Below are positions 231 to 31,368 of a stretch of DNA of 64,000 nucleotides, piece by piece; the first letter of the stretch is position 1, and every line of letters starts with the position of its first letter. The notes beneath the pieces are model-generated. The model was not told the origin of the DNA, ran no database searches, and saw nothing but the letters and a program-made list of their open reading frames with translations. The stretch spans positions 930,001-994,000 of the forward strand of contig NZ_OY986431.1 in assembly GCF_963920485.1 (NCBI RefSeq), in the 5' to 3' direction. The DNA comes from Cyanobium usitatum str. Tous. Its GTDB lineage: Bacteria; Cyanobacteriota; Cyanobacteriia; PCC-6307; Cyanobiaceae. The position numbers and the translations under genes are program-made.

Positions 231-1343
231 GTGCTCCAGTTCAGCAAATATCAAGGCCTGGGAAATGATTTCCTCATGCTTGATGGCAGGGGAGCCTCCA
301 GCACTGATGCCAGCTACGGCCTCACCTCGGAACGGATCCAGCGTCTGTGTGACCGCCGCTTCGGCGTTGGCGCTGACGGGGTGATCCTGGCCCTGCCGCC
401 CCGGCAGGGCGGTGAGTTGCGCATGCGGATCTTCAATGCCGATGGCACGGAGCCGGAGATGTGTGGCAATGGCATGCGCTGCCTGGCCCGCTTCCTGGCC
501 GATAGCGATGGCGATCTTCCCGGGCGGCAATGGCAGATCGAAACCTTGGCGGGCCGCATCGTTCCCGAGCTGCTTCAGGACGGCAGCATCCGAGTCGACA
601 TGGGAGCCCCCTTTCTCGACCCTGAATCCATTCCCACCACCTTGGCTTGTGGCGAAAACGGGCTGGCCCAGGGCAACTTGGAAGTGGCTGGCAGCTCGTT
701 TGCGGTCGGGGCGGCCGGCATGGGCAATCCCCACGTTGTGATCCCCGTTGACGACGTTGAGGCGGTGGATTTGGAGCGTTACGGCGCGGCATTCGAGGTT
801 CACCCCGCCTTCCCCGCCCGCACCAACGTTCATTTCGTCCAGGTAATCAGTCCCACTCACCTGGTGATGCGGGTGTGGGAGCGCGGTGCGGGTCCCACCT
901 TGGCCTGCGGCACCGGCGCTTGCGCCACCCTCGTTGTGGCCCATCTGTTGGGGCTGGCTGAGCGCTGCGCGCGCCTCGACCTCCCAGGTGGTCCCCTGGA
1001 AATTGATTGGGATCAAGCCAGTGGACATGTGTTTATGGCGGGCCCCGCTGTGGCTGTTTTTGACGGCGTCGTGACCCCCGAGCTCTGGGGTGATGAGCCC
1101 TTTGAACTCGAGGCCGCCGCTCCGGTGCAACAGCAACCAGATGCTTCGCCTGCAGTCGACTGCGCCAGCGTCTGCACCAATGGCTGCATCCGGCCTGAAG
1201 CCTGCCCTTCAGCGGAAGCCCGGGCCCGGGTTGATGCCCTGCTCAACGGCAGCTCCCTCGACGACCTGGTGGCCTTGGCCACCAATTCCCTTGAATCGCG
1301 GATTCGCTCCCGCTTTGACCGGGATGCTTCCCAGGGAAGTTAG
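231..1343 (+). CDS. dapF: Diaminopimelate epimerase with Cys-rich C-terminal extension
   Basis: DapF interconverts LL- and meso-diaminopimelate for lysine and peptidoglycan synthesis in the cytoplasm. From GTG 231 the protein is 370 residues; an in-frame GTG at 210 would add seven. I prefer 231 because family members begin right at the LQFSKYQGLGNDF motif. The two catalytic cysteines are in CGNGMRC (Cys78) and ACGTGACA (Cys226). The epimerase fold ends near residue 290, where homologues usually stop; about 75 more residues follow, with Cys311, Cys315, Cys319 and Cys325 (C-x3-C-x3-C-x5-C) and then a helical, charged tail. The stop at 1341-1343 is directly followed by the GTG of the next gene, so the two are probably co-transcribed. 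Confidence 0.95.
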   Translation: MLQFSKYQGLGNDFLMLDGRGASSTDASYGLTSERIQRLCDRRFGVGADGVILALPPRQGGELRMRIFNADGTEPEMCGNGMRCLARFLADSDGDLPGRQWQIETLAGRIVPELLQDGSIRVDMGAPFLDPESIPTTLACGENGLAQGNLEVAGSSFAVGAAGMGNPHVVIPVDDVEAVDLERYGAAFEVHPAFPARTNVHFVQVISPTHLVMRVWERGAGPTLACGTGACATLVVAHLLGLAERCARLDLPGGPLEIDWDQASGHVFMAGPAVAVFDGVVTPELWGDEPFELEAAAPVQQQPDASPAVDCASVCTNGCIRPEACPSAEARARVDALLNGSSLDDLVALATNSLESRIRSRFDRDASQGS

Positions 1344-2528
1344 GTGGGTCATTCGGGCAGTCGGGTGCCAGCACTGGCTAGCTACTTCGACACAAGCGCC
1401 ACCACTCCCACCGCTACTGAGGTGCTGGAGGCAATGGCCCTTGCCCAGGCCACGGCCTGGGCTAACCCCTCAAGCCTCCACGCCCCTGGCCTTGCAGCAG
1501 CAGAGCAGCTCGAACGCTCGCGCCTGAGCCTGGCCGAGGGGCTGGGCTGCGAGCTCGATGAACTGGTGGTGACCTCCGGTGGCACCGAGGCCATTCATCT
1601 GGCCCTGCTCGGTGCTGCTGCTGGCCTCACCCCCGGCCGGTTGGTGATATCGGCGGTCGAGCATCCCGCCACGCTGGCGGCAGCTGCCCAGCTGGAGCAG
1701 CGCGGTTGGAGCGTCCAAACCGTGCCGGTGGATAGGCAGGGATTACTTGATCTCGATGCCCTCGCTGGCTTGCTAGCGCCTCCAACCCGTTTGGTCTCGG
1801 TGATCTGGGGGCAAAACGAGGTTGGCAGCCTCCAGCCGATTGAGGCGATCGGGGCACTTTGCCGGCGGGCGGGGGTGCTGCTGCATGTTGATGCGGTGCA
1901 GGTTCTGGGCCACCTGCCGATCACTTTTCGCCAGCTGCCCATTGATTTGTTGAGTGGGGCGGCTCACAAGCTGCAGGGACCAAGGGGGGTTGGCTTGCTG
2001 CTGGTGCGGCGTGGTCTGGCCCTCCAGGCCCAGCTTGGTGGTGGCGGCCAAGAGGGCGGCAGGCGAGGCGGCACCGAACCAGTGGTGCTGTTGAGCGGCT
2101 TCGCCAAGGCCCTGGAGCTCAGCTGTGCCACCCCCTCGCTGGCACCCCTTCGCGACTCCCTGCTACGTCGGCTTTTGAGCCTTCCCGGGGTGCGGTTGAG
2201 CGGTCCGCCCCCGGGCGACTCCCGCCTGCCTCACCACCTCAGTCTGCTGGTGGCTAGTGAGACTGGCCTGCCGCTTTCCGGCCGCAACCTGGTTCGTGAG
2301 CTCTCCCGACAGGGCTTCGCCTTGAGCAGCGGTTCGGCCTGCAGCAGCTCTGGATCGGCTGCCAGCCCCGTGCTCCAGGCCCTGGGCTACAGCGAGGCCG
2401 ACGCCGCAAGTGGCCTGCGCATCAGCCTCGGGCCCTGGCACCGCGCCGCCGATCTCGACGCCCTGGTTCAAGCTCTGCAGATGGCGCTTGCGGCCTCGGT
2501 AGCGTCTGAGCACCCGTTGACGGCCTAA
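1344..2528 (+). CDS. Cysteine desulfurase, NifS/IscS class
   Basis: A PLP enzyme of 394 residues that removes sulfur from cysteine for Fe-S clusters and thiolation. The N-terminal YFDTSATTP motif, SGGTEA (79-82), the His107 that stacks on PLP (VEHPAT), the PLP lysine Lys209 in AAHKLQGPRG, and the active-site Cys333 in SSGSACSSSG are all present. The short loop before Cys333 and the serine-rich surroundings fit the group I (NifS/IscS) rather than the SufS group. The GTG start follows the dapF stop with no gap, and its own stop overlaps the next ATG by one base, so this looks like an operon. Which of the NifS paralogues it is cannot be decided from sequence alone. Confidence 0.92.
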   Translation: MGHSGSRVPALASYFDTSATTPTATEVLEAMALAQATAWANPSSLHAPGLAAAEQLERSRLSLAEGLGCELDELVVTSGGTEAIHLALLGAAAGLTPGRLVISAVEHPATLAAAAQLEQRGWSVQTVPVDRQGLLDLDALAGLLAPPTRLVSVIWGQNEVGSLQPIEAIGALCRRAGVLLHVDAVQVLGHLPITFRQLPIDLLSGAAHKLQGPRGVGLLLVRRGLALQAQLGGGGQEGGRRGGTEPVVLLSGFAKALELSCATPSLAPLRDSLLRRLLSLPGVRLSGPPPGDSRLPHHLSLLVASETGLPLSGRNLVRELSRQGFALSSGSACSSSGSAASPVLQALGYSEADAASGLRISLGPWHRAADLDALVQALQMALAASVASEHPLTA

Positions 2529-3220
2529 TGCTCCCCTCCGATCTGCGCAGCGCCGAAGCTGAAGCACTGGCGGCGATTCAGAGCGCCTTGGCCGCAGGCG
2601 CTAAGGGGCTGTGGAGTGTCGAGCTCCGTTTTGAGGGTCTGCGTCTACTCCCTTTGGCCCTGCGATTGCAGGCTGGGCTCAGTCCCGCCGCACCGAGCCT
2701 GAGGCTGCTTTGTGCCGATGCCGGCGCAACCGCCCTGGCCCAGCGCGATGCCCCTGATTTTGCAACCCGAATTGCCAGCCTGCGCGAGCAGATGCGCCTT
2801 CAGCAGGCTGATGGCGGCAGCGAGGGCGTGCTGCTGCTGGTGGCACCTTCCCCCGCCGACTACGAGGAGGTGGAACAGGTATGCGCCCTGCACCGCGGCG
2901 TTGTCTTGCTGTTAAACGGCAACCTCGAGGATGCGGCCATCGGCATCGGCAGCGTGGCTCGAGAGCGCCGCAAGGGTTTTCTGGCCGGCTGGCAGAGCGC
3001 CTATGCCCTGATTCCAACGGGCGATGGGGCCCTGCGTCGGGCCTGTCCCGGGATGTGGGAGCTGTATCGCTGTGATGCCGATGGCTATCGCTTTGTTTGC
3101 AATTTCGACCAGAAGCCAGATATGGAGCAACGGGCGTTAGCCATGGCGGGTGAGGCCGGCCTGGGGCTCGGCGCCAACCTCAAAGTGATGGACGCTTTCA
3201 TTGAAGGCTTGCGCAGCTAG
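2528..3220 (+). CDS. DUF1995 family protein
   Basis: A 230-residue soluble protein starting at an ATG that overlaps the desulfurase stop (TAATG). The N-terminal half contains repeated Ala/Leu helices and the segment LLLVAPSPADYEEVEQVC; the C-terminal part has the WELYRCDADGYRFVCNF-type strand pair. This pattern matches my memory of DUF1995, a family shared by cyanobacteria and plastids where it is sometimes fused to adenylate kinase. No catalytic residues are known for the family. Its position behind a cysteine desulfurase is suggestive only of co-expression. Confidence 0.75.
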   Translation: MLPSDLRSAEAEALAAIQSALAAGAKGLWSVELRFEGLRLLPLALRLQAGLSPAAPSLRLLCADAGATALAQRDAPDFATRIASLREQMRLQQADGGSEGVLLLVAPSPADYEEVEQVCALHRGVVLLLNGNLEDAAIGIGSVARERRKGFLAGWQSAYALIPTGDGALRRACPGMWELYRCDADGYRFVCNFDQKPDMEQRALAMAGEAGLGLGANLKVMDAFIEGLRS

Positions 3221-3293
3221 CTCCCAGCGGAACCCCTTGCACTGGATCTAAGCGGCCAGCCTCCGTACACTTCGCCAAACGCAAACCCTGCCG

Positions 3294-3833
3294 ATGGCTT
3301 CCGAGAGCGACCAGAGCCCTGTCGCAAAAGGACGCTCCTGGAGCTTGGTTGACATCGGTGCCGGAGTTGCGGTGCTGCTAGCTGCCGCAGGTGTGATCTG
3401 GAGCCCCAAGCTGAGCGGAGCGGTGGCTCAGGCCACCGGCGGCCTCACCCCAGTCACCGTGCTGGTGGATGTGCGTGGTGTGCCGGTGGCTGATCCCGGA
3501 GCCTTGATTCAGGCCGCCCAGCGGGAGGGCAAGGTTGCAATCGTGATCCGCAACCAGCCCCATGGCTCGGTGGCGCTCAAGCAGGTATTGCCCCTGCAGC
3601 GGCGCCTGGTGGCGGTCCAACCCAACGGATCGGTGGTGACGGCTGTGGACCCCAACCAGGCAATTCTGGGCAGCCTCGATGCTCGTTTTGTGCTCCAGGG
3701 TCAGGGCCGCAAGAGCGCTGGTGGTGTGGTTTTTGGCAACCAAACCCTCAAGATTGGTGCCCCAGTGGAAATTGAGGGGGAGCAGTTCCGGGTTGGCGGC
3801 ACGGTTAGTGGCCTCCAGGTTGGAGGTGGCTGA
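3294..3833 (+). CDS. DUF4330 family membrane-anchored protein
   Basis: A 179-residue protein with a short charged N-terminus, one membrane span at about residues 20-42 (VDIGAGVAVLLAAAGVIWSP), and a beta-rich domain after it. The spacing of VRGVPVADPGAL and GGVVFGNQTLKIGAPVEIEG matches what I recall of DUF4330, found widely in cyanobacteria and of unknown function. The single span suggests that the C-terminal domain sits on the periplasmic or lumenal side. It ends one base before the start of the PBP4 gene, which suggests a cell-envelope link. Confidence 0.75.
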   Translation: MASESDQSPVAKGRSWSLVDIGAGVAVLLAAAGVIWSPKLSGAVAQATGGLTPVTVLVDVRGVPVADPGALIQAAQREGKVAIVIRNQPHGSVALKQVLPLQRRLVAVQPNGSVVTAVDPNQAILGSLDARFVLQGQGRKSAGGVVFGNQTLKIGAPVEIEGEQFRVGGTVSGLQVGGG

Positions 3834-3834
3834 G

Positions 3835-5145
3835 ATGGCCCCCCTCAAAACCCCTGCTAAGCGTCAGCTTCTGCTGAGCCTTTCTGGTGTGCATGCCCTT
3901 GGGCTCGTTTTGGCGCTTTCGCCAGCCACTGCCTTGGCTCAGCAGGTGCCCCTGGCTCAGCAGGTGCCCCTAGCGACCCTTCCGCTCCTGCCCCCACCGG
4001 TCGGCCTGCCCCAGCTGCAGGCTCAGCTGAGCTGTCCGGCGCTGCAGCAGCGGCTGCTTGCCACCGTGGCTGGCCAGGCTTCTGTGTGGAGCATCACCAT
4101 TGCCGATGCCCAGGGTCGTCTGCTGGCCGACCTCAACGGCAACCGGCCCCGTATTCCCGCTTCCAACCAGAAGCTGGTGAGCACGGCCTACGCCCTGGAC
4201 AGATTGGGCCCTGATTACCGCCTCAATACCCAGCTCTGGCGGTTGGGGGATGGCAGCTTCCGCCTCACTGGCGAGGGTGACCCCGACCTGGCCCTGCCCC
4301 AGCTGCAGCGATTCGCCATGTTGGCGATGGGATCGGGTGGCAGCAGTGGTGAGACCCCCTCGCTGGTGCGGTTGCAGATCGCCGAGGAGCCACGCCAGGC
4401 CTGGTGGCCCCAAGGTTGGCACCCAGACGATCGCTACTACGCCTACGGCGCCCCGATCACCCGGCTAGCGGTCACCAGCAATGCCATAAACGATGCGGTG
4501 ATGAATCCGCCTTCACGACTGCAGACCCTGCTGCAGAAAACCATGGTTCAGCGTGGGGCCAAGGTGCAGGTGTCACTGGTGTCGTCCCGCGCTCCCCTGC
4601 CCGGTGATGCGGTGCTGCTGCATCAGGAGCCATCGGCTCCAATGCACAACCTGCTGAGCCTGGCCAATACCGAAAGCCACAATTTTACCGCCGAAGTACT
4701 GCTGCGACAGGGGGCTGGCACCTGGGATTTGGCTCGAGCCACCCAGCTACAGATGCTGTGGCTCACCGAACAGGGCCTGCCGATGCAGGGTATTCGCCTT
4801 GCCGATGGCAGCGGCCTCGACCGCGCCAACCGGCTCACCAGCCGCTTTTTGGTCGCGCTGCTGATGCGCATGGATCAGCACCCCTACGGCCGCGCCTATC
4901 TGGCGTCGATGGCGGTTGCGGGCCAGCGGGGCACCCTGCGCAACCTTTATGTGGGCACCCCCCTGCAGGGACAGTTCTATGGCAAAACAGGCACGATCAG
5001 CGGTGTGCGCTCCATCAGTGGCGTGCTGATGACGGGGGCCGGGCCCCGCTACGTAAGCGCCATCAGCAATGGCGCCAGCTCGCCTAACGACACTATTGGC
5101 AGGGTGCTGCGCCAAGCGCAAAACAGCCAGCTGTGCCCCCCCTAG
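3835..5145 (+). CDS. dacB: D-alanyl-D-alanine carboxypeptidase/endopeptidase, PBP4 (class C) type
   Basis: A 436-residue periplasmic peptidoglycan hydrolase of the S13 family. The frame is open from 3679, but the ATG at 3835, one base after the preceding stop, is followed directly by a signal peptide (basic MAPLKTPAKR, then a hydrophobic stretch and an Ala-Leu-Ala-type site). The three penicillin-binding motifs are visible: SNQK with Ser110/Lys113, SHN at 281-283, and KTG at 384-386. The spacer between signal peptide and SNQK is short and carries a tandemly repeated LAQQVP unit. The gene ends four bases into the convergent coiled-coil gene. Confidence 0.93.
   Translation: MAPLKTPAKRQLLLSLSGVHALGLVLALSPATALAQQVPLAQQVPLATLPLLPPPVGLPQLQAQLSCPALQQRLLATVAGQASVWSITIADAQGRLLADLNGNRPRIPASNQKLVSTAYALDRLGPDYRLNTQLWRLGDGSFRLTGEGDPDLALPQLQRFAMLAMGSGGSSGETPSLVRLQIAEEPRQAWWPQGWHPDDRYYAYGAPITRLAVTSNAINDAVMNPPSRLQTLLQKTMVQRGAKVQVSLVSSRAPLPGDAVLLHQEPSAPMHNLLSLANTESHNFTAEVLLRQGAGTWDLARATQLQMLWLTEQGLPMQGIRLADGSGLDRANRLTSRFLVALLMRMDQHPYGRAYLASMAVAGQRGTLRNLYVGTPLQGQFYGKTGTISGVRSISGVLMTGAGPRYVSAISNGASSPNDTIGRVLRQAQNSQLCPP
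3936..3971 (+). repeat. Two perfect 18-base tandem copies inside dacB
   Basis: The unit ggctcagcaggtgcccct occurs at 3936-3953 and again at 3954-3971. It duplicates six residues (roughly LAQQVP) just after the predicted signal-peptide cleavage site. The copies are identical, so the duplication is probably recent. Confidence 0.9.
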
Positions 5146-26909: not shown

Positions 26910-26968
26910 CTCGCCACGGCTGTTTGGAAAGGAAGGGAACGAACACCCTGCCAACCCAACTTCAGTCC

Positions 26969-27769
26969 ATGACCCAATCGATCAAAACCAAATCCCTCTG
27001 CCGCCGCGCCCTCCAACAACGCAACCAGCGGGTCAACCAGTACCGCGCTCTGGTGACCCCAATCGCTTTGCACTACTGCCGCCGCTGTCCCGAGCCCCTC
27101 GACGATCTGGTTCAGGTGGGACTGATGGGCCTGCTAAGAGCCGCCGAGCTCTATAAACCGCAAACAGCAACTCCTTTCGAGGCCTTTGCTAGACCCCACA
27201 TCCGTGGCGCCATCCTGCATTACCTGCGCGATTCGGCATCGGCCGTGCGGTTGCCTCGCCGGCAGATGGAGCTACACGACAAGCTGCGTCAATTGAAGGC
27301 CAGCTGGAGCAGTGACCACGGGCAGGAGCCCAGCTGCGATGATCTGCGCCTGGCTCTGCAGCTCAACCTCGACCAATGGCAAGAATTGCTGCGTGGTCAA
27401 GCTTTGGCCAGGCCTCTGGACCTGCAGACCGGCTACGAGGAAACCAGGCTGCAAGGTGATGAAGGAGTCAGGCTTTGGGAGTCTGAAATCACTGGCGCCG
27501 ATGACTGGGACCATCAAGGGGCTGAAGTGCGTCAGCAACTTGCTTGCCTTGAGCCCGGACTACGTCGCGTAATCCAGAAGGTCGTGCTCTCGGGCTGGAG
27601 CTACCGGCGCACGGCAGCCCTGCTGCAGGTGAGTCCGATGACGGTGCAGCGAAGACTTAAGCAGGGCCTGGCACAGCTGCGCTCCGCCCTCCTTAAAGCA
27701 GACGCGTTCCCAACTCTCAGCTGCCAGCCGAGGTCCCATCCCGCTCCATCTGTCGCTCCAGCGTGCTGA
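26969..27769 (+). CDS. Group 3 RNA polymerase sigma factor, SigF-like
   Basis: 266 residues from ATG 26969; a TTG at 26924 would add 15. Region 2 is clear: ALHYCRRCPEPLDDLVQVGLMGLLRAAELY, then FEAFARPHIRGAILHYLRDSASAVRLPRR. Region 3 follows (PSCDDLRLALQLNLDQWQELL), and region 4 has a helix-turn-helix (YRRTAALLQVSPMTVQRRLKQGL). The CPEP/DDLVQVG pattern and the RGAILHYLRD segment are typical of cyanobacterial SigF, known in Synechocystis for control of pili, motility and envelope genes. No anti-sigma factor is adjacent. The two genes downstream on the same strand are candidate targets, by position only. Confidence 0.88.
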   Translation: MTQSIKTKSLCRRALQQRNQRVNQYRALVTPIALHYCRRCPEPLDDLVQVGLMGLLRAAELYKPQTATPFEAFARPHIRGAILHYLRDSASAVRLPRRQMELHDKLRQLKASWSSDHGQEPSCDDLRLALQLNLDQWQELLRGQALARPLDLQTGYEETRLQGDEGVRLWESEITGADDWDHQGAEVRQQLACLEPGLRRVIQKVVLSGWSYRRTAALLQVSPMTVQRRLKQGLAQLRSALLKADAFPTLSCQPRSHPAPSVAPAC

Positions 27770-27911: not shown

Positions 27912-27985
27912 GAGAAAGTGGGAGAGGTCATTAAGGTTCTAGCGAGCCTGACGGGCTTGCCGAGTGTCGTGTTTCTCCTCCAGCG

Positions 27986-29740
27986 ATGGCCCTGAAACAC
28001 CCTTCGCTCAGTTCCATTCCAAGCCCCTGTACGAGCTCTCAATCTGGGTTTGCAACCGACTGCCGGTCCTACCCTTGTGCAGTCGGGGCCATTGCACTCA
28101 ATCCCAACACCCTGATTTCCAGATTTCCGTTGCGGCCGATCAAACTGCTGATAGCAACTGCCTTGGGTGTTCCCCTCGGTCTGTTGCAGACGCTGCCAGC
28201 GGCCGCTTACGTAGCCCTTATGGCGGGACAACAGGCCCGTCCCCTAAACGGCACCTTCAACAAGGTGCCGGTTCTGCATTCGAACCAGCCTGAGGAGGTG
28301 GAAGGCCCCGGAATCCTGATCAACACAGCACCTGGACACGCCTACGCCGAAGAGACTGGCCAACCATTGCGTAATGCCGAATTCACCTTCAACGGTGACT
28401 TTGGTGTGCACATGCACCACAAGTATTTCCCACCGAACCGCCGCCAGCTATCTCCCTCTGCCAGGCGTCCAGAAATCACCTTAGGGCTGATTCTGATCAA
28501 TCCCGGCCTGCGGGCAGTGCACATCCGCTTTGAAAACGGTGCAGTGCGGAACAGCTTTGAGGCGCCTTACCTTATCAATCACAAAATGGGAGTTAGACCT
28601 CTTGGTCCTCGCCCTTGGAATACCGGCCCTGGAGATGCAACCGCTGTGCAGGTGCTGCGTGGTCGCTTAGATCCAAAACTCAATCAGGAAATCACAATTC
28701 CTGCTCGCAGCAGGATTGTCCTATTTCAGACTCAGCTGCCTGCGCTTGGCATTGCCAATGCACTGCTTAAAGGCCGCAGTGACGGCCCTTTTCAGATGGC
28801 TGTTGTTGCTGCCAAGGACCCCAATAGTGACTGGGATTTAATCTCTGTTTTGGATCGGGGCCGGCTTGCTCCGGGCCGGGTCTATCTGAACCGTATTGCT
28901 GATATCAAAGGCCGGCGCATTTTTTCCCGCGTAGGGGGAGTTGCCATTGGAGATGCCTATCAGGCCAGCCTCAGCCACAACCTTGCCCAGCAAGGCCCAT
29001 TACACGTTCCGCTAACGAGCACTAATCGCCACAATTTTGGTACCCGCGAAGTGCAGGTAAACCCACTTGTCAGCCGCATGGTGGATTCATCCCTAGACAA
29101 TGTGGGCACCTACGGAGTTCGATTTGATGTTGATCTGAATCTCAAGGGGGCTGGCCCCTATGAGCTAGTTCTCAGTCATCCCACCGCCTCAGGAAGTGGT
29201 AAACCTTTCACTGCCTTCAGGGGGTCACTGCAGGTACGCACCGAGGAAGGGCTTCAAGAAATGCACGTTGGCATGCGCTCTGGCCAAAGCTTGCCCCTCA
29301 CTACCTTGAATCTTCAGGGAGGTGTATCCAACCCAGTTCGGATCAGCTTGGTATATCCAGCTGATGCCACCCCTGGGCACCTGCTCAGCATTGTGCCTGC
29401 CAGTCAGGTCGCCATGGTCAAAGAGCGAGAGCGCTTATTCGAGCTGGCTCGCAACACAGCCAGCCCCGCGGCGCTGACGCCCCCCCAGTCCCTGCCTGCG
29501 ATTCCGGATCAAGATGGTGAGGGTCAGGATAGATCAGTAGAGATGACCCCTTTGGTGCTGCAGCCCCGCTTCCCCAGCCTGCCCCCCCTTAGATCAAATC
29601 CACCGCCCCCACCGCCAGTCTCTCAGCCGCGTTATTCCCCCAGCCAGACTTCAACACCTGGGAACCAAACCTTGGTTGATCGCTACCAGCAGGCCCTAGA
29701 AGCGCAGCAGGAAATGATGCGCGGCCTTATGGGCCGTTAG
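27986..29740 (+). CDS. DUF3370 family exported protein
   Basis: 584 residues from ATG 27986. A late hydrophobic segment at about residues 52-74 (IKLLIATALGVPLGLLQTLPAAA) is the signal sequence, so the true start may be downstream of 27986. The mature part follows the DUF3370 plan: QQARPLNGTFNKVPVLHSNQPE, FGVHMHHKYFPPNRRQ, LGLILINPGLRAVHIRF, and late GTREVQVNPLVSRMVDS with YGVRFDVDLNLKGAGPYELVLSHP. The last 100 residues are Pro/Ser-rich and probably disordered. The family is cyanobacterial and uncharacterised. It lies 2 bases before the RHH-J gene and behind the sigma factor. Confidence 0.82.
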   Translation: MALKHPSLSSIPSPCTSSQSGFATDCRSYPCAVGAIALNPNTLISRFPLRPIKLLIATALGVPLGLLQTLPAAAYVALMAGQQARPLNGTFNKVPVLHSNQPEEVEGPGILINTAPGHAYAEETGQPLRNAEFTFNGDFGVHMHHKYFPPNRRQLSPSARRPEITLGLILINPGLRAVHIRFENGAVRNSFEAPYLINHKMGVRPLGPRPWNTGPGDATAVQVLRGRLDPKLNQEITIPARSRIVLFQTQLPALGIANALLKGRSDGPFQMAVVAAKDPNSDWDLISVLDRGRLAPGRVYLNRIADIKGRRIFSRVGGVAIGDAYQASLSHNLAQQGPLHVPLTSTNRHNFGTREVQVNPLVSRMVDSSLDNVGTYGVRFDVDLNLKGAGPYELVLSHPTASGSGKPFTAFRGSLQVRTEEGLQEMHVGMRSGQSLPLTTLNLQGGVSNPVRISLVYPADATPGHLLSIVPASQVAMVKERERLFELARNTASPAALTPPQSLPAIPDQDGEGQDRSVEMTPLVLQPRFPSLPPLRSNPPPPPPVSQPRYSPSQTSTPGNQTLVDRYQQALEAQQEMMRGLMGR

Positions 29741-29742
29741 GC

Positions 29743-30801
29743 ATGGCTAAGCCGGCGGACCCCAATCGTCGTCGCTTCAGTCTGGAGCTGCCTGTCGATT
29801 TGCTCGATAAAATTGATGCGCTGCGGGCGGAGTGGGGCATTCGCAGTCGTGGAGATATTTTGGAGCGTCTGCTACAAGAGATCTTCCCAAATAGTGAGGA
29901 AGCTGATACCTCTGTTCTTGCATACGGCAGCGATCATCAGCCTGATGAATTTCTGAGCGTACAAACCAGCCTGCAATCAACCTTCAACGAGCAGGGGGCG
30001 TTGGTGTTGATGACTCGGGGCTCCGGTGGAGACTTGTGCCTGGATCGCGAATCAGCGGATCCTGAATTTGCCTTCAACTTCGATGTTGATGCGTCGATGG
30101 CAGCGGAAGTGCGCCCTCGTCAGAGCGGCATTGACTTACCTGGCTTTGTGAGGCGCCAATCTGATCAGCTCAAGCGCAGTCTCCAGCCCCTACGCCAACC
30201 CATGGATGTGGCGCAGGAACCTCTGCCCCACATAGGCGGTGATGTTCTTGAACGCTCCCTGGCTAAAGCCCGCGACCACTGGCTTGAGCTCTATGGCAAG
30301 GTTGCTAATGAGGCGGTACTAGAAGCCGCAATGGTGTGGTTGGCCCAGGACATTTGGGCCCAGAGTGATCAGAGTGAGGGTCGCCCTTTTACTTGGTCGC
30401 TTGCTTGCGAGGTGGTGGCCAATACGGCTCCCAGCTGGGGCAGGGAACCCGCAACATTCGAAAGAGTCATGGTGATGGCAGGTTTGCTGGAGGATCCCTT
30501 CAGCACTTCAACCCTGGAACTTCGCTTGCCAACGCTGATCAGGCGCTTTGTACATCGTTTCCGCAAGCGACGTAAAGGCAGTTCGTTCCAGACTCTTGAA
30601 CACACCATGACTCTGCACGGAGCCTTAAAGCTGCTGCAATTGCCAACAGCGCCGGGGCAGCGTCTCACCCTGCGACAGATACGGGAGGCTTACCGCGAGT
30701 TGGCGATGAGCCATCACCCCGACTCCGGCGGCACGGAAGAAACCATGCGGCGCCTAAATGAGGCTTACCAGTTGCTGAAAGAGCTGTACCGCAACGAATA
30801 G
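29743..30801 (+). CDS. RHH-like N-terminus fused to a C-terminal J domain
   Basis: 352 residues. Residues 9-45 (RRRFSLELPVDLLDKIDALR, then AEWGIRSRGDILERLLQEIF) have the beta-strand plus two-helix pattern of ribbon-helix-helix DNA-binding proteins. A long middle of about 240 residues has no recognised motif but contains helical stretches (DHWLELYGKVANEAVLEAAM) and a basic patch (RRFVHRFRKRRKG). The C-terminus is a J domain: LTLRQIREAYRELAMSHHPD with HPD at 325-327, then EETMRRLNEAYQLLKELY. The J domain should stimulate a DnaK-type chaperone. The RHH call is from pattern only. It is 2 bases downstream of the DUF3370 gene. Confidence 0.82.
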   Translation: MAKPADPNRRRFSLELPVDLLDKIDALRAEWGIRSRGDILERLLQEIFPNSEEADTSVLAYGSDHQPDEFLSVQTSLQSTFNEQGALVLMTRGSGGDLCLDRESADPEFAFNFDVDASMAAEVRPRQSGIDLPGFVRRQSDQLKRSLQPLRQPMDVAQEPLPHIGGDVLERSLAKARDHWLELYGKVANEAVLEAAMVWLAQDIWAQSDQSEGRPFTWSLACEVVANTAPSWGREPATFERVMVMAGLLEDPFSTSTLELRLPTLIRRFVHRFRKRRKGSSFQTLEHTMTLHGALKLLQLPTAPGQRLTLRQIREAYRELAMSHHPDSGGTEETMRRLNEAYQLLKELYRNE

Positions 30802-31368
30802 CTTCGTATAACAATTCTTGATTGGGACTCGTATCGAGTCTTGGAATAATTCTTGGACGAGACTGATGGGCTGTTCTTTTGTTGGGGCCGACGTGTGCCT
30901 GCCTGCCCCCCTTGTTTGAGCAAGCCCCAACAGTTTGATTAGGCAAAGACGAGGCAGTGAGCGATTCATCTCGTCTCATCTGAGATTAAATATTGGTCTT
31001 GCTAAGAGCCTTATTCGAGATGTATGCGAATAATCGTTCTTGGCTCAATTGGTCTTGTCTTGCGCTAAGACTATTTAAGAGTCTTAGCTTAGAACCCTGA
31101 GACATTTTTAAGCAGGCGTCTTCCCTTGGCTGCTGATGCTTTGTTGGTTTGATTTCCAATTTTTCCGCGTTTCTGCCTGCATGCTCCTATCCGCTCCCCC
31201 TATGGGGCCTTTGTTGGTGTGGCAAGAAATTGGCCATATCAGCTTGTCCAGTCACCCGAAGTGAGCTTGTCCAGATGGCGCGGCTGTCTTCAAAGTCCCT
31301 GCGGTAACAGTGTTAGAAGACCTGCGTCACTGTTTCATACACAGGTACGCAATCTCTTTAGGCCCAGC
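30802..31368. other. Non-coding stretch dense in inverted repeats; candidate structured RNA(s)
   Basis: 567 bases with no convincing gene and lower GC than the flanks. Perfect inverted repeats occur in series: GACTCG-tat-CGAGTC at 30826-30840; TGTTGGGGC (30880-30888) with GCCCCAACA (30924-30932), enclosing CTTG/CAAG; TCTCA-tc-TGAGA at 30974-30985; GAGCC-TTATTCG (31006-31017) with CGAATAA (31027-31033) and GGCTC (31042-31046); GCTAAGACT (31064-31072) with AGTCTTAGC (31080-31088). The word TTGGTCTTG recurs near 30993 and 31049. None has a proper T-tract, so simple terminators do not explain them. An RNA gene is possible but I cannot match it to tmRNA, RNase P, SRP or 6S RNA. Confidence 0.4.
31241..31274. 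repeat. Direct repeat agcttgtccag, two copies 23 bases apart
   Basis: The 11-base word is at 31241-31251 and 31264-31274, upstream of the small open frame starting at 31369. Two helical turns of spacing would suit tandem binding of one regulator, but no regulator is known. Confidence 0.4.

Follow-up and report, generated by a model that had tools for sequence, protein, structure and literature searches.

The gene examined here lies in a 64,000-nucleotide stretch of the genome of Cyanobium usitatum str. Tous (the window, i.e., the whole stretch analyzed) and encodes a protein, RHH-J, that joins an N-terminal ribbon-helix-helix (RHH) domain to a C-terminal J domain. With its J domain bearing the HPD motif, helices I to III, and none of the additional domains of classes A and B, the protein fits the class C J proteins, and the reading that we rank first, tentatively and at somewhat less than an even chance, is that of a class C J-domain co-chaperone anchored to DNA. 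The fusion of an RHH to a J domain suggests that a chaperone may be brought to a particular chromosomal place. RHH-J is conserved in tiny freshwater and marine cyanobacteria and is apparently unstudied. The features of the gene and its surroundings are collected in Table 1.

TABLE 1 Features of the RHH-J gene and its neighborhood (positions in the window)
Feature	Coordinates	Strand	Remarks
SigF-like sigma factor	26924-27769	+	Best NCBIfam model SigF PRK07408, 160.9 bits, below the cut-off of 261
Conserved small ORF P0002, 64 codons	27720-27911	-	Divergent from the DUF3370/RHH-J unit; found by tblastn in 77 of 80 loci
DUF3370 gene, immediately upstream	27986-29740	+	Ends in TAG, 2 nt from the RHH-J ATG
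RHH-J gene	29743-30801	+	352 aa plus stop, ATG to TAG
Ribbon-helix-helix (CopG type), residues 9-48	29767-29886	+	Pfam RHH_1, predicted helices, conserved residues
Acidic variable linker, residues 49-127	29887-30123	+	Low pLDDT, high dN, charge
IDLPGF segment, then helix 134-147; residues 128-147	30124-30183	+	Invariant residues in 61 rows
Compact five-helix middle domain, residues 166-276	30238-30570	+	AlphaFold2 model
J domain helices I-III, residues 291-351; HPD 325-327 (30715-30723)	30613-30795	+	Pfam, AlphaFold2, structural comparison
Terminator-like hairpin, 10-pair stem and T-rich tail	30822-30854	+	21 nt past the RHH-J stop; consensus match only

A sequence-only reading of this DNA had placed an RHH fold at residues 9 to 45 and a J domain with an intact HPD at residues 325 to 327 near positions 300 to 350. 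Both domains were borne out at the sequence level, since both Pfam models scored above their curated cut-offs: RHH_1 (PF01402) matched residues 11 to 46 (E = 1.3e-5, 25.4 bits versus 20.5), where the AlphaFold2 model also has two suitably placed helices, and DnaJ (PF00226) matched residues 309 to 346 (E = 2.1e-7, 31.4 bits versus 27.8), with the HPD at the place named. Neither a non-RHH prediction for the N terminus nor the loss of that region from close homologues, either of which would have spoken against the earlier reading, was observed. None of the NCBIfam models listed for RHH-J exceeded its cut-off, and no in-frame ATG, GTG, or TTG was found between the preceding stop codon and the ATG of the gene. 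The full-length AlphaFold2 model was computed on an alignment of 61 rows, the window plus 60 of 80 named loci (A2), and had a mean pLDDT of 71.9 and a pTM of 0.52. What had been described as a 240-residue unassigned middle indeed received no domain by homology, but it actually consists of a linker, the IDLPGF segment, and a helical domain.

A chance or misread fusion was ruled out. The whole architecture aligned in all 16 sequences of a second alignment (A1) and in the 61 rows of A2, the N-terminal region was present in every row of both, the dN of the RHH region was low, and full-length matches occurred in 35 of the 291 genomes sampled from the phylum (E about 1e-118 or better), all of them in the family of the window. 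The median dN over 15 pairs was 0.023 for the RHH region (residues 9 to 47), 0.262 for residues 48 to 127, 0.084 for residues 128 to 165, 0.030 for residues 166 to 284, and 0.015 for the J domain (residues 291 to 350), the lowest of the five regions; dN rather than dN/dS is given because several dS values were large or not computable. Since its median dN is low and near those of the middle and J domains, the RHH is a selected part of the protein.

We then determined the distribution of the gene. None of the nonmatching phylum genomes listed, beside which 203 more stood outside the listing, belonged to the family of the window, and in the 33 other matching genomes of the phylum the match was confined to the J domain or the residues beside it (257 to 350 at the widest). 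In a sample of 40 relatives, a long match including the middle domain was found in 18 of the 25 family genomes, and none of the 15 genomes of other families had more than J-domain matches. Six of the other seven family genomes were 71 to 85% complete and one, G023, was 99% complete; among the six, G003 had the RHH end of the gene at a contig edge, and G009 had only an RHH-like frame of 60 codons. RHH-J was absent from G023; its 16-kb pheT neighborhood contained pheT and a phycobiliprotein-like gene and lacked both RumA and RHH-J. The gene is thus not indispensable to the family. Of 351 candidate stretches on named contigs, 328 encoded a relative by tblastn. The titles of the best 80 include Cyanobium, Synechococcus, Prochlorococcus, and Vulcanococcus, from which we read the family as Cyanobiaceae, the nearest named relatives being Synechococcus sp. 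CS-1330 (95%) and Cyanobium usitatum (92%). Two of the loci, L079 and L069, are titled Microcystis elabens and Aphanothece saxicola and show the picocyanobacterial gene order; their names may mislead. By the profile of its middle domain, RHH-J occurs once per genome, including streamlined genomes of 1.6 to 1.7 Mb. It probably has a function of steady use, because it is kept in a single copy in very small photosynthetic genomes.

Two other origins were considered and rejected. A phage or plasmid source found no backing, as the J region alone was matched in the phage records listed (20 of 23) and in all 7 plasmid records, none of the phage or plasmid records covered 80% of the query, and among viral contigs none was confirmed to encode a relative. 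A cyanobacterium-wide ancestor was likewise set aside, the best match outside the family (G264, residues 257 to 350) being to an otherwise unrelated protein. That protein (L146, positions 2566 to 3849, minus strand) is a frame of 428 codons that carries its own J domain at the C terminus and is unrelated in its N-terminal part.

The RHH domain itself was examined by structure prediction, alignment, and profile comparison. Helices were predicted at residues 18 to 31 and 36 to 47 with a pLDDT of 80 to 85, while the strand expected at about residues 11 to 16 did not form at residues 9 to 16 of the single-chain model. This is what one expects of a lone RHH chain; the domain folds as a dimer. Pfam recognized RHH_1 in 37 of the 61 aligned members at E <= 0.1. 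Comparison of the N terminus with RHH structures, proposed in the sequence-only reading, gave weak matches: a profile of this region built from 39 of the A2 rows matched CopG (E = 0.047) and NikR (E = 0.058), neither significantly, and a leucine-rich repeat chain, a sum of weak repeats, stood above them. The profile of the whole protein weakly matched NikR over the RHH (E = 0.013), and no RHH chain appeared among the fold matches listed for the full model (the best 50 of 124 and, in the other list, the best 50 where 413 chains had Z >= 2). The case for an RHH fold, as predicted from sequence, is carried by Pfam.

In A2, G32 and G37 were kept in all rows, R34 and R36 each in 60 of 61, R11 in 54, and S or T at position 13 in 48. 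Residues R11, S/T13, R34, and R36 occupy what we take to be the positions at which RHH repressors touch bases and phosphates, and the conservation of these strand and helix-B residues speaks for DNA contact. Speaking against it are the weakly basic net charge of the region (median +1, range -2 to +4) and an acidic residue (E or D) at strand position 15 in 46 of 61 rows. The latter two features would be explained if the RHH did no more than dimerize or oligomerize a J protein dedicated to a single client, with no DNA bound, and many J proteins do act as dimers. We consider this unlikely, given that the four residues named above are conserved beyond what a dimer core alone would seem to require.

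Two small proteins of the same genome resemble the RHH of the fusion. One (L150, positions 2047 to 2274, minus strand; 75 aa) aligned to it over 40 columns with an hhalign probability of 98.5% and 48% identity, and the other (L151, positions 1943 to 2308, minus strand) has nearly the same N-terminal RHH-like signature. Neither was among the eight places in the genome matched by PF01402, three of them above the cut-off, so the two point to a shared subfamily only and do not count as separate evidence for the fold. A stand-alone RHH-like protein of this kind, joined to a J protein, may have given rise to the fusion. Each of the two small genes adjoins one for a small secreted-looking protein.

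The gene was described earlier as lying in a same-strand run with a SigF-like sigma factor and a DUF3370 gene, and both are indeed found upstream on the plus strand. Across 80 loci the usual order was SpoIID-like, ATP adenylyltransferase-like, SigF, the small ORF (minus strand), DUF3370, and RHH-J, followed by a phycobiliprotein-like gene (minus strand), a RumA-like gene, and PheT (minus strand); the names other than SigF and DUF3370 are our presumptive assignments, read from the translations. DUF3370 was found in 66 of the 80 loci and SigF in 71, with contig ends counted as misses. The functional tie to these neighbors that had been hinted at proved weak, and a unit with them was rejected: within the flanks fetched, which for L116 comprise just 1.4 kb upstream, neither gene was detected beside RHH-J in eight of the nine loci titled Prochlorococcus (L094, L100, L107, L108, L110, L112, L114, L116, and L117), L110 alone having SigF or DUF3370. 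RHH-J persists in these loci and therefore outlives both neighbors.

Within the window, DUF3370 and RHH-J are probably cotranscribed, as judged from their 2-nt spacing and the hairpin that follows RHH-J. The same spacing was present in L038 to L044; sites of the hairpin-type consensus numbered 10 in 3.6 kb versus a mean of 3.5 in shuffled sequence. In 34 of the 35 family genomes, all but G201, the divergent small ORF P0002 and RHH-J were at most 3 kb apart. P0002 had no Pfam match and appeared coiled-coil-like by eye. Its profile matched 47 of the 291 phylum genomes; 12 of these lay outside the family and lacked RHH-J. P0002 was therefore rejected as a dedicated partner of RHH-J; it is possibly an overlooked small cyanobacterial protein.

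The short divergent region ahead of the DUF3370/RHH-J unit (positions 27912 to 27985) holds a 12-bp block, GTTCTAGCGAGC, at positions 27936 to 27947, which is likely a promoter element or an operator. Its first 10 bases, GTTCTAGCGA, occur once in the 2.66-Mb genome, compared with eight times for the reversed control. A 9-bp core, TTCTAGCGA, was found 24 to 26 bp upstream of the P0002 start in 35 of 80 loci (in L042 after correction of the match start), and no exact match to it was present in the other 45. The fixed spacing, together with its absence from these 45 loci, makes the core look like the promoter of P0002 itself; as an RHH operator the block is unproved, the fixed distance to P0002 making a promoter more likely.

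These sites bear on another explanation, which we likewise hold to be improbable, that RHH-J is a chaperone-sensing transcription factor whose RHH represses its own promoter or a few others and whose J domain makes the protein itself a target of free DnaK. Repressors are common among RHH proteins, the gene unit lies behind a divergent region with a block whose first 10 bases are unique in the genome, and DnaK, as a co-repressor or as a releaser or refolder, would couple transcription to chaperone supply. The cyanobacterial TrcR is described as an autoregulated RHH repressor (in a portion of PMC10272220), and a precedent is offered by a title cited in PMC2687793, which names DnaK as a co-repressor of Streptomyces HspR. 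The position of the 9-bp core, fixed relative to P0002 and so likely part of its promoter, argues against such a sensor, as does the middle domain, which is about as conserved as the RHH and thus seemingly beyond what a mere sensor would need.

The part of the protein between its two terminal domains was resolved by prediction into segments of different character. The linker is disordered in the model, with a pLDDT below 50 over residues 56 to 128, and has a median net charge of -11. It contains one short conserved stretch, A86-L87-V88-L89, in which V88 was invariant and the others were kept at >= 90% in 61 rows. In the IDLPGF segment, I130, L132, P133, and F135 were invariant in the same rows and G134 was kept at >= 90%; the helix that follows (residues 134 to 147) was modeled with a pLDDT of about 55 only. 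The middle domain has helices at residues 166 to 184, 190 to 207, 218 to 226, 239 to 250, and 255 to 276, with block means of 90 to 96 from residue 161 to 270 of the full model, and residues 156 to 284 folded alone also gave five helices (pLDDT 88.6, pTM 0.83). Foldseek returned no match at E <= 0.001 for this domain against the PDB or the BFVD viral models, the best VIA-align score was a Z of only 4.1 (3hw2_A, 74 residues at 4.8 A), and its sequence profile yielded one meaningless PDB row (E = 0.63). The same profile matched 35 of the 291 phylum genomes, once each and all in the family of the window, so as far as sampled the domain appears to be confined to RHH-J. It is thus a small, confidently modeled helical domain with no relative detected in these searches, which is not proof of a new fold.

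The J domain was modeled with helices at residues 291 to 297, 310 to 324, and 332 to 351 and without helix IV. All 61 aligned orthologues keep the HPD, and Pfam found DnaJ in each of them at E <= 0.1. The best structural match to the full model was Tim16, the partner of Tim14 (2guz_B; Z 9.7, 63 residues, 1.8 A), the J domain of DnaJ bound to DnaK (5nro_B) scored a Z of 6.8 (58 residues, 2.5 A), and the first 44 fold rows listed were nearly all J domains, many at Z 5 to 7. By sequence profile the best PDB chain was Tim14 (2guz_A; E = 2.9e-5), ahead of polyomavirus T antigens and Hsp40s. A DnaJ/CbpA-like general chaperone of class A or B was ruled out: the J domain is C-terminal, the rest of the protein is unmatched, with no Pfam match to the zinc-finger or C-terminal DnaJ domains of those classes, and the full-length DnaJ model TIGR02349 scored 24.2 bits versus a cut-off of 377.2.

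Five basic residues through which DnaJ contacts DnaK, R22, K26, R27, K48, and K51, are named in a section of the review PMC8215388. In A2, aligned with E. coli DnaJ, R22, K26, and K48 correspond to R314, R or K318, and R336, each in 61 of 61 rows, while the equivalents of R27 (mostly E/D319) and K51 (N339) are not basic. With an HPD-bearing J domain and three of five basic contacts kept, recruitment of DnaK by RHH-J is likely. That the J domain should be a structural relic without DnaK function, the protein then being an RHH regulator whose C-terminal half is helical, is very improbable, for the two nonbasic positions and the absent helix IV are outweighed by the HPD in every row and the lowest median dN of the protein. 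The genome has two full-length and three partial HSP70 matches and seven J-domain places, RHH-J included; DnaK1 is reported, in a passage of PMC9239167, to be absent from marine picocyanobacteria. A further J protein of the lineage was seen at L030 (positions 973 to 1728, plus strand) and L029; its open frames, 252 and 266 codons long, have an N terminus that looks coiled-coil-like and end in a J domain.

The DNA-anchored co-chaperone that we rank first would work as follows. The RHH domains would join two chains into a dimer whose paired strands and helix-B ends rest on a specific DNA site. From there, the acidic disordered linker would give the helical middle domain and the J domain at the C terminus room to extend. 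The J domain with its HPD would drive DnaK to hydrolyze ATP and clamp a client held near the site by the middle domain or the IDLPGF segment, and the outcome would be local remodeling of a nucleoprotein complex instead of general folding. The domains of RHH-J, its conservation and distribution, and the predicted J fold come directly from the analysis; dimerization, binding to a DNA site, DnaK stimulation, and a client are our inference. A bolder form of the co-chaperone reading, possible and held with considerable doubt, is that a core protein of the picocyanobacteria, Prochlorococcus included, tethers DnaK through its RHH to a chosen chromosomal site, with a hitherto undescribed helical domain presenting a nucleoprotein client. 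If true, these cells would have an inbuilt, DNA-addressed chaperone that serves replication, segregation, or transcription.

Among the titles, abstract openings, and passages covered in the open-licence literature, including that on RHH/CopG with DnaJ or Prochlorococcus, there was no description of an RHH-J fusion with this middle domain, although one may exist, and in the main text of a paper on clade signature proteins (PMC2823733) DnaJ, CopG, J domain, and heat shock are nowhere mentioned. The known systems nearest to RHH-J each share a part of it. Like it, CopG, NikR, TrcR, and FciC have an N-terminal RHH_1 with polar strand residues and a conserved start of helix B; unlike it, CopG and NikR carry, to our knowledge, no J domain. 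FciC, a small protein of marine Synechococcus, has 55 to 67 aa, compared with 352 in RHH-J (as given in part of PMC3877281). The class C J proteins DjlA, HscB, and Tim14/Pam18 have helices I to III with an HPD as RHH-J does, but RHH-J differs from them in its N-terminal RHH and in its helical domain, for which none of the searches brought up another protein. In Tim14 and DjlA the J domain is C-terminal, as it is here. We know of no client for many class C J proteins; for RHH-J the N-terminal domain suggests that the place of action may be DNA. J proteins that also bind DNA include E. coli CbpA and the SV40/polyoma T antigens, the J domains of the latter being the next best PDB matches to RHH-J after Tim14, and in these proteins the J domain is N-terminal and the DNA-binding parts are unrelated to RHH. 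Myxococcus CdbA is presumably an RHH protein. In the portions of PMC10313047 that concern it, this chromosome-organizing DNA-binding protein is genetically tied to the DnaK chaperones CsdK1 and CsdK2, which are encoded, unlike the two parts of RHH-J, by genes separate from that of CdbA, with no J domain on the RHH.
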